From Bacillus sp. RO3 (GTDB lineage: Bacteria; Bacillota; Bacilli; Bacillales; Bacillaceae_B), in NCBI RefSeq assembly GCF_012911895.1, contig NZ_JAAXCV010000030.1:62001-126000 (forward strand): a stretch of 64,000 bases of DNA, read 5' to 3'. The notes under the pieces are model-generated. The model was given only the letters and a program-made list of their open reading frames with translations, searched no databases and had not been told where the DNA came from. A program made the position numbers and the translations under genes. Positions within the stretch are counted from its first letter, which is position 1. Each line of letters begins with the position of its first letter. Below, one piece after another: positions 10,190 through 54,005 of the stretch.

Positions 10190-10256
10190 ATCAAGAAAAA
10201 AACAACCCCCCATTTTGGAAAGTTGTACAGGTAAGTTTACCTTATCTTCCAAAATG
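10190..10256 (-). terminator. S-box-controlled terminator
   Basis: CATTTTGGAA (10211-10220) pairs with TTCCAAAATG (10247-10256). On the minus strand the hairpin is followed by GGGGGG and then TTGTTTTTTTC. The upstream arm overlaps the 3' edge of the S-box aptamer, as expected for a SAM-dependent switch. Confidence 0.82.
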
Positions 10257-10342
10257 ACTTTACATTTTGCTGGAATTAGCACCTTACAATACGTAGGTTG
10301 CTGGGCTTCACAGGGCCAGATCCCTCCACCTCTCTGGATAAG
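10241..10342 (-). promoter_or_regulatory. S-box (SAM-I) riboswitch
   Basis: The minus strand shows the S-box core in order: CTTATCCAGAGAGGTGGAGG, GATCTGGCCC, GTGAAGCCCAGCAACC, GGTGCTAATTCCAGC and the closing GATAAG. These are the conserved SAM-I segments. It leads into a terminator, so high SAM should stop transcription of the sulfate operon. An S-box before cysH is also known in B. subtilis. Confidence 0.95.
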
Positions 10343-10365
10343 AGTTATTCTTTTTAATATTCTAA

Positions 10366-27190: not shown

Positions 27191-27233
27191 GAGATCATAG
27201 GAATAAACGGATATTCTACGTGACCATCAAACA

Positions 27234-27324
27234 CCACTTCCCTCCGCTGGTCTCAACCAGATCAGGTTCAAAGGGTCTTAAAGTCACACTTTAATCTCAG
27301 CCTTTTACAAGGCACCCCTAGTGG
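27234..27324 (-). promoter_or_regulatory. TPP riboswitch (THI box)
   Basis: The minus strand reads, in order, CTAGGGGTGCC, GGCTGAGA, GACCCTTTGAACCTGATCTG and CAGCGGAGGGAAGTGG. These are the conserved TPP aptamer segments. TPP binding should terminate transcription before tenA and so shut down the tenA-ykoEDC-tenI-thiOSGFDE operon. Confidence 0.96.
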
Positions 27325-27354
27325 ATCGTCCAATTAAATTTTGTATTCGAAGCT

Positions 27355-47003: not shown

Positions 47004-47352
47004 ATGACCTCAACAGCATTTGGGCATATAAAAGCCAGCCCCCGATTGGGAACTGGCTTGAGATACTGCTATTAGGAGCCACATTTGCCGTAATGAGATA
47101 TAAGAAAGTTTTAAACCACCACTCCTCAAAGTGGGTGTTTGCAGAAGGTTTCCTGTCGTCCTCATGTCGTGGAGGCTTGACATTCCAACTTCGATGTAAA
47201 ACTCCCTATTACAGTTTAAAGGTTAAAACTTCGTTATGATTACGTACAACGCAGCCTGTATTAATATATTACAATATCGTCAAAGTCATTTCAACTATTG
47301 TTTTTGCTTGATCATGATCTTTTGACTGGAAATAAGGTCCGTCCCTCTTCCC
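47004..47352. other. Gene-free stretch with hairpins
   Basis: No gene is visible. Two hairpins stand out: AAGCCAG (47032-47038)/CTGGCTT (47053-47059) enclosing a C/G-rich pair, and an imperfect CCACCACT/AGTGGGTG near 47117-47138. The layout recalls the ends of IS200/IS605-type elements, but no transposase remnant could be shown. Confidence 0.3.
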
Positions 47353-49215: not shown

Positions 49216-49307
49216 CATGTATGTGATAGGAAACAACTTTAGACCGTAACATAAAGGCCGGGGAACGGACATATGTTGTTAGTACTTTTAAAGAAAGGGG
49301 TGATTGA

Positions 49308-49937
49308 ATGTATAACCCACTCTATCCTTTTAATCCTGAAATGAGAAATGACGTTAACTCCATGCCATTTTGTGCACAAACCAATGATCCTGCTCCTCTC
49401 TTTATTGCTGATGCGTACGATCATTCACAAAAGAAGATATACAGAATCAACCTGGAATCATATCGCGGTAAATGGGTCATTTTATTTTTCTATTCGAGTG
49501 ATTTTACCTTTGTCTGACCAACAGAGCTGGCAGCGGTCGCTGCTATTCACCCCAGATTTAAAGAAAATCAAGCTGAAGTTCTCGGGATAAGTACTGACAG
49601 TGTATACTCTCACAAAGTGTTCACTGAAGTATCCCCTTCTGCATCTAAAGTGCAATTTCCTTTAGTGAGTGATCGAAATCATGAAATAAGTAAAGCCTAT
49701 CGGGTGTTAAATGAACGAGCAGGCGCTACGTTCAGAGCCACCATCATCATCGACCCTGAAGGCATGATATCATCAAAAATGATCTATCCGCCTGAGGTCG
49801 GTCGGAATAGCTATGAGATATTAAGAGTGCTGGAAGCCATAAAATATGGAAGAAAAACAGGTGAAGGAGTCCCGGCCAATTGGCTTCCAAACCTATCTGG
49901 AATTCAGAAAAATCCTGACAATATAGGGAAGATTTAA
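49308..49937 (+). CDS. prxU: Selenocysteine peroxiredoxin (TGA read as Sec)
   Basis: ATG 49308 (AAAGGGGTG upstream) opens a 209-residue peroxiredoxin, interrupted only by TGA at 49515-49517. That TGA is codon 70, in the motif SSDFTFV-U-PTELAAV, exactly where the peroxidatic cysteine of AhpC/Prx proteins stands. The frame on both sides is intact: VILFFY before it, and EVLGISTDSVYSH, FPLVSDRNHEISKAY, RATIIIDPEG and VGRNSYEILRVLEAI after. A SECIS-type hairpin with GGTC apical loop starts 11 nt after the TGA. The resolving cysteine of the usual VCPANW is Val (GEGVPANW), so this is a 1-Sec type; the usual Pro before Thr is Ser. It should reduce peroxides. A degraded gene is the alternative, but both position and hairpin argue against it. 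Confidence 0.85.
49515..49545 (+). promoter_or_regulatory. Sec TGA codon with bacterial SECIS hairpin
   Basis: After the TGA, TGGCAGC (49528-49534) pairs with GCTGCTA (49539-49545) around the loop GGTC (49535-49538): seven pairs including one G-U. The loop begins 17 nt after the TGA. In E. coli fdhF the SelB-binding hairpin also has a GGUC apical loop about 18 nt after its UGA, so type and spacing agree. Confidence 0.82.
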
Positions 49938-49938
49938 T

Positions 49939-50239
49939 AGAGGTTGGGGCAAAAGCATGAATATCTAAAAAATCGAACTATATTACCTGCATATTGGAAA
50001 TATAGTTCGGGTTTTATACTTTTTTAAATATATCTCATTTTTGGAGTGAAAGCCGTAGACTCTTGGCCAATTTTGCAGGCACCTCCTATTGTTTTTGGGG
50101 TGTCGGAAAACAGGGACAAGCTCACCGACTACCCCCGTAAAGCAGAGTCTTGCAAGGTAATCATTCCCTGTATCAAGAAAGTGCACTGAAATTGCTCGTG
50201 TTTATGTGAAGGTCTTTTTAGTTTTATTACAGCCTCTTT
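49939..50239 (-). repeat. Dispersed repeat element, copy B
   Basis: The minus strand begins AAAGAGGCTGTAATAAAAC at the ykwC stop and ends GCCCCAACCTCT at the prxU stop. It shares with copy A (35591-35933) both ends, the block CACATAAACAC with CAATTTCAGTG, the middle CGGTGAGC stretch, and the CGAACTATATT hairpin. It fills the space between two convergent genes. Its inner 68-codon frame looks like chance. Confidence 0.7.
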
Positions 50240-52058: not shown

Positions 52059-53183
52059 TTACCTAACGGCACAACGGTTTGGACCTGTTTCCATTTCGCG
52101 CTTTTCATCTTCTCCGGGATCCACCTTACCCATATTCGTTTCACGGATTTTTTCATAACTATTGGGTTGTGGAGGAAGGTTTTCGGTAACGGTTTTTCTA
52201 AATTCCTCTTTATCTTCAATGTTCAATCCATGATTTTCCTTATAAAGGTTACTTAGAGGATGGGAAACGGACCCATCTTCATTCATCTCGTCTATGGTCA
52301 TGAAATGTGCAGGTAAGACCGTTAGATCAGGCTTAAGATCTTTGTATCTTGAATACAGTGTTTCTCTTAAATCCCCTACCCAATCTTCGGCTTTCCCTGC
52401 CAAATCTGGCCTTCCAATCGAATCAATAAAGAGAATGTCCCCCGTTAACAAATAACTGTCATCGACAATAAAAGATGTGCTGCCTATCGTGTGCCCCGGA
52501 GAATACAAAGCCTTTATCGTCGTATTGCCGATTTCAATGATTGTATCTTCATTTAACTCTGTATAGTGGTATTGAACTTCCGCTGCATCCTTGGGAGGTA
52601 AATAATATGGTGAATCGTAATCATTGCTTAAAGCTCTGCCCCCGGAAATATGATCTGCATGGAGGTGCGTGTCAAGGACTCCCATAACTGATACGTTATG
52701 CTCCCTAATAAATTCTTTATAAGGCTTCAAAAGGCGGCTGGGGTCAACGAAAGCTGCTTCTCCATTTGACACAATCGCATAAGATAAACATCCCTTGCCA
52801 ATACGGACAAATTGATAAATCGCTCCGCCTGATACGTCACCAATTTTAATTGGTTCTAAATGTTCACTCCAAGCCTGCATACCACCCTTAACGGAATAGA
52901 TGTTCTCCATTCCCGCTTCAACCAGCATTTCAGCTGTTTTGGTTGAAGAATGTCCTTTTGCACAAATAACATATATATCCTCATCACTTGGTAAAACTGA
53001 TTGAACCGATTCAAGATTATCTTTCAGTTCCGAAAAGGGTTTATTGATGATTTTCACGTTCTCCCCTTCTACTTTCCAATCATCGAAAGCATCTTTGGGT
53101 CTAACATCCAGGATGAACATGCCCTCTCCGCTCATTATTTTTTTAGTTAGTTCTTTCGCTGTCAATTCTTTTACTGTAGAAAT
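52059..53183 (-). CDS. CstB-like persulfide dioxygenase-rhodanese, copy 1
   Basis: About 374 residues: a rhodanese domain first ([13 protein letters not shown], active Cys in [10 protein letters not shown]) and then a metallo-beta-lactamase persulfide dioxygenase domain ([39 protein letters not shown]). It should oxidise persulfides to sulfite or thiosulfate. It is very like the gene at 59048. The best start is ATT 53183, with GGGAGGA upstream and an N terminus that aligns with copy 2 ([10 protein letters not shown] against TVKAMKSKE); the TTG at 53165 has no ribosome site. A CstR-type operator lies at 53249. Confidence 0.87.
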
Positions 53184-53248
53184 AATGAATTCCTCCCTTA
53201 CATTTTTATATCCTGTCCTAAATACATTATCCTCATTTTATATTTTTT

Positions 53249-53264
53249 AAACCTACAGGGGTAT
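53249..53264. promoter_or_regulatory. CstR-type operator before cstB copy 1
   Basis: Read on the minus strand, ATACCCCTGTAGGTTT fits the local consensus ATACCC(N5)GGTAT with the last half weaker. It is 66 bp upstream of the ATT start. Confidence 0.6.
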
Positions 53265-53305
53265 TCGGATGCATTCAACAACATTCAAGAGAGGAAGGAA
53301 CACGT

Positions 53306-53644
53306 TTACTCTTCTTTTCCTTCCCATGAATTCATTCCGCCATTCATATTTGTTACATGGAAACCATGATACTCCAGGAACTTAACAGCTTGACTACTTC
53401 GTCCCCCTGATTGGCACACCACTATATATTCTTTATTCTTATCCAATTCATTCATACGAAATTCCAATAGCCCCAATGGAAAATTCATACTATTGGGGAT
53501 TTTCTGGGACCTGAACTCTGCTGCTTCACGAACATCGATAATATTCACAACTTCTCCTGATGATATGCGTTTATTTAATTCAGCTGATGAAATTGTTTTC
53601 AAAATGACTGCCTCACTTTCAGATTTTTCGCGATGAGTGGTCAT
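53306..53644 (-). CDS. Single-domain rhodanese
   Basis: The 112-residue sulfurtransferase has NIIDVREAAEFRSQKIPNSMNFPLG and the active-site loop VVCQSGGRSSQA (Cys). It probably moves sulfane sulfur from persulfides to acceptors. It begins one base after the upstream rhodanese gene and has only a weak ribosome site, so coupling to that gene is likely. An N-terminal extension of about 20 polar residues precedes the domain. Confidence 0.85.
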   Translation of the reverse strand: MTTHREKSESEAVILKTISSAELNKRISSGEVVNIIDVREAAEFRSQKIPNSMNFPLGLLEFRMNELDKNKEYIVVCQSGGRSSQAVKFLEYHGFHVTNMNGGMNSWEGKEE

Positions 53645-53645
53645 A

Positions 53646-54005
53646 CTAGTACCAGGAATTCATACCACCCTTAACATTTGTGATCGATGTGAATCCTTTC
53701 TGTTTAAGCACTCGACAGGCGTTAGCACTTCTCATCCCGCTTTGACAGATTACGATGATTTCTTTATCTTTTGATAGTTTGTGGGCACTTTTCGATAATG
53801 ACTGTAAAGGCATATTCTTAAACTGTCTAATATGATTTTGCTTGAATTCTCCAGGGGTCCGTACATCAATAAACTGCCTTGAGTTGTCATGTAATAAAGG
53901 CTTTAATTCCTGAATGGAGATTTGTTTAATATTTTTACCGGGTTTCTTAAACACCATGTACATAGAAACAAGTAGAACCAGTATAAGTAATCCAATATAA
54001 TCCAA
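53646..54005 (-). CDS. Membrane-anchored rhodanese
   Basis: The 119-residue protein has one N-terminal membrane helix (YIGLLILVLLVSMYMVF) and then a rhodanese domain with QFIDVRTPGEFKQNHIRQF and the active loop IVICQSGMRSANA. It resembles YqhL/YrkF-type proteins. The start is TTG with GAGGTG upstream. A good CstR-type operator lies at 54069, so it is the first gene of a two-gene rhodanese unit. Confidence 0.85.
   Translation of the reverse strand: MDYIGLLILVLLVSMYMVFKKPGKNIKQISIQELKPLLHDNSRQFIDVRTPGEFKQNHIRQFKNMPLQSLSKSAHKLSKDKEIIVICQSGMRSANACRVLKQKGFTSITNVKGGMNSWY

Follow-up and report, generated by a model that had tools for sequence, protein, structure and literature searches.

PrxU of Eubacterium acidaminophilum, described, it is said, by Sohling in 2001, is reportedly the founding case of the peroxiredoxins that contain selenocysteine (Sec). 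Sec peroxiredoxins (Prx) with the motif TxxU are a catalogued family of bacterial selenoproteins (PMC9312934, PMC13188914), and a source of 2016 counts 91 such proteins in 78 organisms (PMC5029168). A survey of 2006 lists three selenoprotein families in Bacillales, and its Table 1 records for peroxiredoxins five Cys-to-Sec events and zero Sec-to-Cys events (PMC1794560). According to a 2026 review, selenoproteins are seldom kept by aerobic bacteria, Sec being too reactive in air (PMC13188914).

The window analyzed here, a stretch of DNA 64,000 nucleotides in length, carries a peroxiredoxin gene with a TGA at the codon for the peroxidatic residue. The features of this gene and its surroundings are:

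49294..49302, forward strand: probable ribosome-binding site, AAAGGGGTG, with the ATG 5 nt further on (read from the sequence)
49308..49937, forward strand: peroxiredoxin gene coding for 209 residues, one of them at the TGA, and ending in the stop codon TAA
49371..49373, forward strand: codon 22, Cys, the sole Cys of the window protein and a proposed resolving residue
49515..49517, forward strand: codon 70, a TGA at the site of the peroxidatic residue, predicted to encode selenocysteine (from the sequence and its orthologues)
49528..49545, forward strand: predicted SECIS hairpin, 7-bp stem (49528-49534 / 49539-49545) and loop GGUC (49535-49538)
49974..50015, forward strand: putative terminator-like inverted repeat (arms 49974-49984 / 49999-50009), then a short T run (read from the sequence)

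The TGA, in the context SSDFTFV-U-PTEL, is the only in-frame interruption of this reading frame, and similar ribosome-binding sites lie 5' of the chosen starts in most orthologues. An earlier sequence-only reading had joined the two frames around the TGA into one intact AhpC/Prx protein, which is borne out by a full-length translation that scores 117.6 bits against the Pfam AhpC-TSA model (cut-off 26) when the TGA residue is entered as Cys. Codon 70 aligns with the peroxidatic Cys of the AhpC-like relative P0121, a more distant AhpC-type protein with a C-terminal Cys, and the gene therefore has an in-frame TGA where relatives have Cys, the mark of a bacterial selenoprotein gene.

With an AhpC-TSA domain and TxxU, the protein belongs to the catalogued family Prx TxxU (catalogue example WP_011365628.1), which it resembles, by motif and domain, in a predicted Sec where the peroxidatic Cys would stand, in the motif T67-F-V-U70 and in the AhpC-TSA domain. 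Because this family is catalogued, the kind of protein is already known. The identification made in the sequence-only reading is supported, but overstated in that Sec peroxiredoxins of bacteria are already described (PMC9312934, PMC13188914). The protein falls outside the PrxU equivalog NF040737, against which it scores 154.9 bits where the cut-off is 270. It also departs from the pattern PxxxTxxU: the Pro that opens the motif PxxxT(S)xxC/U, a residue whose conservation a review rates as high, is replaced by Ser63 in the window protein and occurs in 10 of 69 orthologues. The fold, Thr67, Glu73, Arg143 and the C-terminal PANW region are shared with AhpC and Prx1-type 2-Cys peroxiredoxins, from which the protein differs in its predicted Sec at the peroxidatic position and in the Val, Ile or Leu found where those enzymes have the C-terminal resolving Cys. 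Its score against the typical 2-Cys AhpC equivalog TIGR03137 falls short of the family (143 bits, cut-off 272), with Val188 at the resolving position. The same genome (G000) also encodes a stop-free Cys relative at 40% identity (G000:C28:453807-454313).

Elsewhere in the window, all on the reverse strand, matches above the Rfam gathering score were obtained for a purine riboswitch (2166-2267), a SAM riboswitch (10239-10344), a TPP riboswitch (27222-27329) and a 6S RNA (47072-47260). Three adjacent open reading frames lie at 52059-54005 on that strand (52059-53165, 53306-53644, and 53646-54005), and from their translations they look like rhodanese or rhodanese-metallo-beta-lactamase proteins.

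Orthologues of the peroxiredoxin gene are widespread and carry the same TGA. The genus draw yielded orthologues (66-100% identity) from 19 of its 36 genomes, each with one TGA (19/19). In genome_contigs, 32 loci were found, 27 of which are full-length orthologues (L050-L076) with TGA in every case, and the remainder includes the Cys relatives L077 and L081, at 45% and 24% identity. In the order draw, whose genomes overlap in part with those of the genus draw, 53 of 397 genomes match at E <= 1e-45, a threshold that the weakest order match passes easily (1e-66) and that excludes the genus's canonical Cys relatives (>= 1e-34); the gene has TGA in 52 of them, from 20 genera, and is without a stop in one. 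The phylum draw gave matches in 12 of 398 genomes, again with TGA in 12/12, ten of these lying outside the order at 48-58% identity. Across 69 distinct orthologous proteins, codon 70 is a stop/TGA in 68 and Cys in one; the assignment of the TGA to the peroxidatic Cys codon, and the comparison of homologues for Cys or Sec there that the sequence-only reading had proposed, thus both come out in its favor.

Some matches are partial. The orthologue in G002 (L038) has an open frame from roughly residue 40 onward only, which may reflect a broken gene or a misassembly 5' of the TGA. Three further loci (L078, L079, and L080) retain only a C-terminal tail of the gene, about 30-37 residues, and for L078 and L080 the likeness extends to the first bases past the stop. 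The selA coordinates suggest that the genome of L078 (G417) is the same as G063, which has an intact copy too. These three loci were considered as lost gene copies and ruled out as instances of trait loss, since the matches are confined to the tail and selA is present in all three genomes.

The TGA could in principle be a nonsense mutation in a pseudogene, or an error of sequencing, and the public record has the look of it, in that gene finders take the codon as a stop: among the 120 listed of 651 protein matches, 104 begin at query residues 74-92, past the TGA. However, the TGA is kept at codon 70 in the orthologues counted above, with the frame intact on both sides, and the comparison of the window gene with L022 gives low dN/dS both before the TGA (0.12/1.23) and after it (0.06/0.59). 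The possibility of a sequence error, which had been raised with the original reading, is disfavored because Rossellomorea sp. AcN35-11, whose genome is complete and separate (CP128835.1), encodes an identical protein with TGA at codon 70. With the TGA conserved across the orthologues from the genus, the order and genome_contigs, a pseudogene or sequencing error was rejected, and its probability is negligible. Because 104 of the 120 entries represent only the fragment past the TGA, the enzyme is easily overlooked.

The window belongs to a genome of 4.22 Mb in 34 contigs (G000), which is that of a Rossellomorea; Rossellomorea and related bacilli are aerobic. The sequence-only reading had proposed a search of the genome for selA, selB, selD and a tRNA-Sec, and G000 proves to hold all four components of a selenoprotein host, each found in the genome search:

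G000 C22:86211-87587: selA
G000 C28:103715-105556: selB
G000 C22:84293-85219 (locus L009): selD, with its own in-frame TGA
G000 C28:116806-116898: tRNA-Sec

The product of selD is itself likely a selenoprotein, because its in-frame TGA sits in the context GUGCK. Adjoining it is an open reading frame of 79 residues with a TGA in the context CMRU (L009:2615-2854, G000 contig 22), which scores 74 bits against the Pfam family Rdx (cut-off 22.6), a SelW-like family, and is a candidate SelW-like selenoprotein. Together with the peroxiredoxin, G000 has at least three selenoprotein candidates. The formate dehydrogenase alpha model TIGR01591, which matched in 11 of 14 control genomes, gave no match in G000.

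The TGA-containing gene is also tied to selA across genomes. In the order draw, selA scores above the cut-off in 181 of 397 genomes and is present in all 52 with the TGA gene, at E 2e-158 or better (Fisher 1.8e-20, a value taken without correction for kinship and from lists matched by eye). In the genus draw, selA occurs in 19/19 carriers and in 11/17 non-carriers (p 0.006); in one carrier (G024), selA is split into two overlapping frames.

Reading of the TGA as Trp, or unspecific read-through without selenium, was weighed against these observations. The codon is covered by 16 of the 120 listed among the 651 protein matches, and 14 of these, all of them protein entries, show Trp, while the other two (P0005 and P0121) show Cys. 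The Trp in those entries is most likely there because the gene finder applied a code in which TGA is Trp. Against such a reading, Cys is the only alternative at codon 70 that was verified in DNA, Trp is incapable of the peroxidatic role, and the gene is tied both to selA and to a conserved SECIS-type hairpin. Read-through as Trp was rejected on the co-occurrence with selA and on a TGT (Cys) form in one genome, G212, and is very improbable. Codon 70 is instead predicted to encode Sec, because a UGA stands at the position of the catalytic Cys in a genome with the genes for making and inserting Sec, and from these sequence features insertion of Sec at this codon is almost certain.

The predicted hairpin agrees in its coordinates with what had been described from the sequence, namely a 7-bp stem starting at the 11th base after the TGA (a gap of 10 nt), a GGTC loop, and 17 nt between the TGA and the loop. 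The bacterial SECIS model, as set out in section 5 of the review, calls for a loop of 3-9 nt, a stem of 4-16 bp, a distance of 16-37 nt from UGA to loop, a G within the first two loop positions, and an energy of -7.5 kcal/mol or lower (PMC13188914). The window hairpin satisfies this model, with its 4-nt loop GGUC, 7 bp, 17 nt and -9.5 kcal/mol. Structures of this kind also arise by chance: the hairpin has z = -1.48 relative to shuffled sequences, 17 of 200 of which fold equally well or better, and when the peptide was recoded synonymously 20000 times, a hairpin of equal or greater stability arose in 1782 cases. Taken alone, the hairpin is weak evidence, and it is not improbable by chance. The argument that a nonsense mutation would hardly fall on the catalytic site and also bring a proper hairpin therefore stands as regards the site, which is conserved, but not as regards the hairpin by itself. 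Rfam searches of the whole window at gathering cut-offs, and of 49300-49950 up to E = 10, returned no SECIS-type match at the peroxiredoxin gene.

What is beyond chance is the conservation of the hairpin at synonymous sites. Over a set of 44 distinct loci, codons 75-78 show third-base conservation of 84, 100, 100, and 95%, compared with a mean of 47% and a maximum of 76% for 27 other fourfold codons downstream, a set that includes codon 79, also part of the stem. Stem pairing holds in 305 of 308 cells over the same loci, a level reached by 13 of 2000 shuffles and thus a modest excess; most pairs vary too little to be informative. Pair 18-27 is seen as A-U, G-U, and G-C. When the 45 nt from the TGA are folded, a different hairpin has the lowest energy in five of the 44 loci (L027, L029, L037, L067, and L068). 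When distant members are included, the 81 distinct TGA loci have the loops GGUC (68), AGUU (7), and CGUG (6), in which the central GU is invariant and the flanking bases N1 and N2, both at synonymous positions, can pair as G-C, A-U or C-G in 81/81 (counted per locus). The outer stem pairs are looser in the distant members (14-31 in 70/81, 15-30 in 73/81). These loops are of the N1-G-[G/U]-N2 type, with N1 and N2 paired, that is given for the published model in section 5 of the review (PMC13188914).

The gene is thus read, with very high confidence on sequence grounds, as encoding an AhpC/Prx1-type peroxiredoxin in which UGA codon 70 would be decoded as Sec through SelB and tRNA-Sec, with the hairpin 10 nt downstream as the guiding signal. 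The selenolate of Sec70 would then attack H2O2 or an organic hydroperoxide, with the help of Thr67, Glu73 and Arg143, leaving a selenenic acid intermediate. Resolution would not involve the usual C-terminal Cys; it may fall to Cys22, from the same subunit or from its partner, or to an external thiol, for example thioredoxin or bacillithiol.

The predicted structure and the conserved residues fit such an enzyme. The AlphaFold model (pLDDT 84.2, pTM 0.81) places Sec70 in the first turn of helix 69-79, and its best matches in the PDB are tryparedoxin peroxidase, Salmonella AhpC and Prx1-4. The combination of AhpC-TSA domain and catalytic Thr, Glu and Arg that identifies a peroxiredoxin is present, with Glu73 and Arg143 found in 69/69 and Thr67 in 68/69 distinct orthologues. 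The product is very likely to have peroxidase activity.

The resolving residue is less clearly indicated. Position 188, that of the lost C-terminal resolving Cys, is Val in 61, Ile in seven and Leu in one of the 69 orthologues. Cys22 lies within an N-terminal tail otherwise variable in length and sequence; of the 67 distinct orthologues that align at this residue, 65 retain it, the Cys form of G212 among them. In the AlphaFold model, the N-terminal 22 residues fall below pLDDT 50, and Cys22 is not placed. From its conservation, Cys22 can be proposed tentatively as the residue that resolves the oxidized Sec, with the chances leaning slightly against it. It may be, alternatively, that Sec is inserted and resolved by an outside thiol only, as in 1-Cys-type enzymes, Cys22 serving some other role. 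The absence of a C-terminal resolving Cys from all 69 orthologues is consistent with this, as are the two Sec proteins L075 and L076, which have TGA, Tyr at the position of Cys22 and no Cys anywhere. In other Bacillota classes, a Cys at the same spacing is mostly missing as judged by eye, being present only in L114 among the ten loci outside the order (L121 is too short to judge). The retention of Cys22 in so variable a tail, even in the Cys form of G212, speaks against resolution by an outside thiol alone, and we consider that alternative evenly poised.

The Cys form deserves separate description. G212 is the only genome of the order draw in which the orthologue has Cys, encoded by TGT at codon 70, and searches of the order draw gave no selA match and no selB above the cut-off in this genome; two TGA genomes from its family group (G302 and G398) have both selA and selB. 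The region of the hairpin folds at -3.3 kcal/mol in G212 compared with -9.5 kcal/mol in the window, and the hairpin is absent. The protein entry P0005, from Alteribacter keqinensis, is the same protein. In phylogenetic trees, the Cys form falls within the Sec clade (support 100/98 with 79 rows and 94/85 with 75 rows), at a tentative position on a long branch, in trees that have long branches elsewhere as well. The direction of change is taken as Sec to Cys because of this nested placement and because the four outermost rows, which come from metagenomes and are printed with Trp, are taken as TGA.

While the family is known, this group is less ordinary in its spread through bacilli, in the lack of a formate dehydrogenase match in G000, in its near-invariant N-terminal Cys where a C-terminal resolving Cys is missing, and in its natural Cys form from a genome with no selA match. 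No description of a Sec-peroxiredoxin clade of bacilli was found in the literature searched, which lay mostly outside subscription journals. A wider interpretation, possible but on balance rather doubtful, is that a lineage almost exclusively of Sec form in air-living bacilli would serve in peroxide defense and would contribute to the upkeep of the Sec system without a selenium formate dehydrogenase, with a new layout in which the N-terminal Cys acts as resolver instead of the lost C-terminal one, and with one Sec-to-Cys rescue, in a relative that had lost the selenium system, accompanied by decay of the SECIS element. That 52 of 397 genomes from a single order of bacilli carry a predicted Sec peroxiredoxin bears on the review's statement that selenoproteins are rare in aerobes, and the Cys form without selA bears on the absence of Sec-to-Cys events in peroxiredoxins from the survey.
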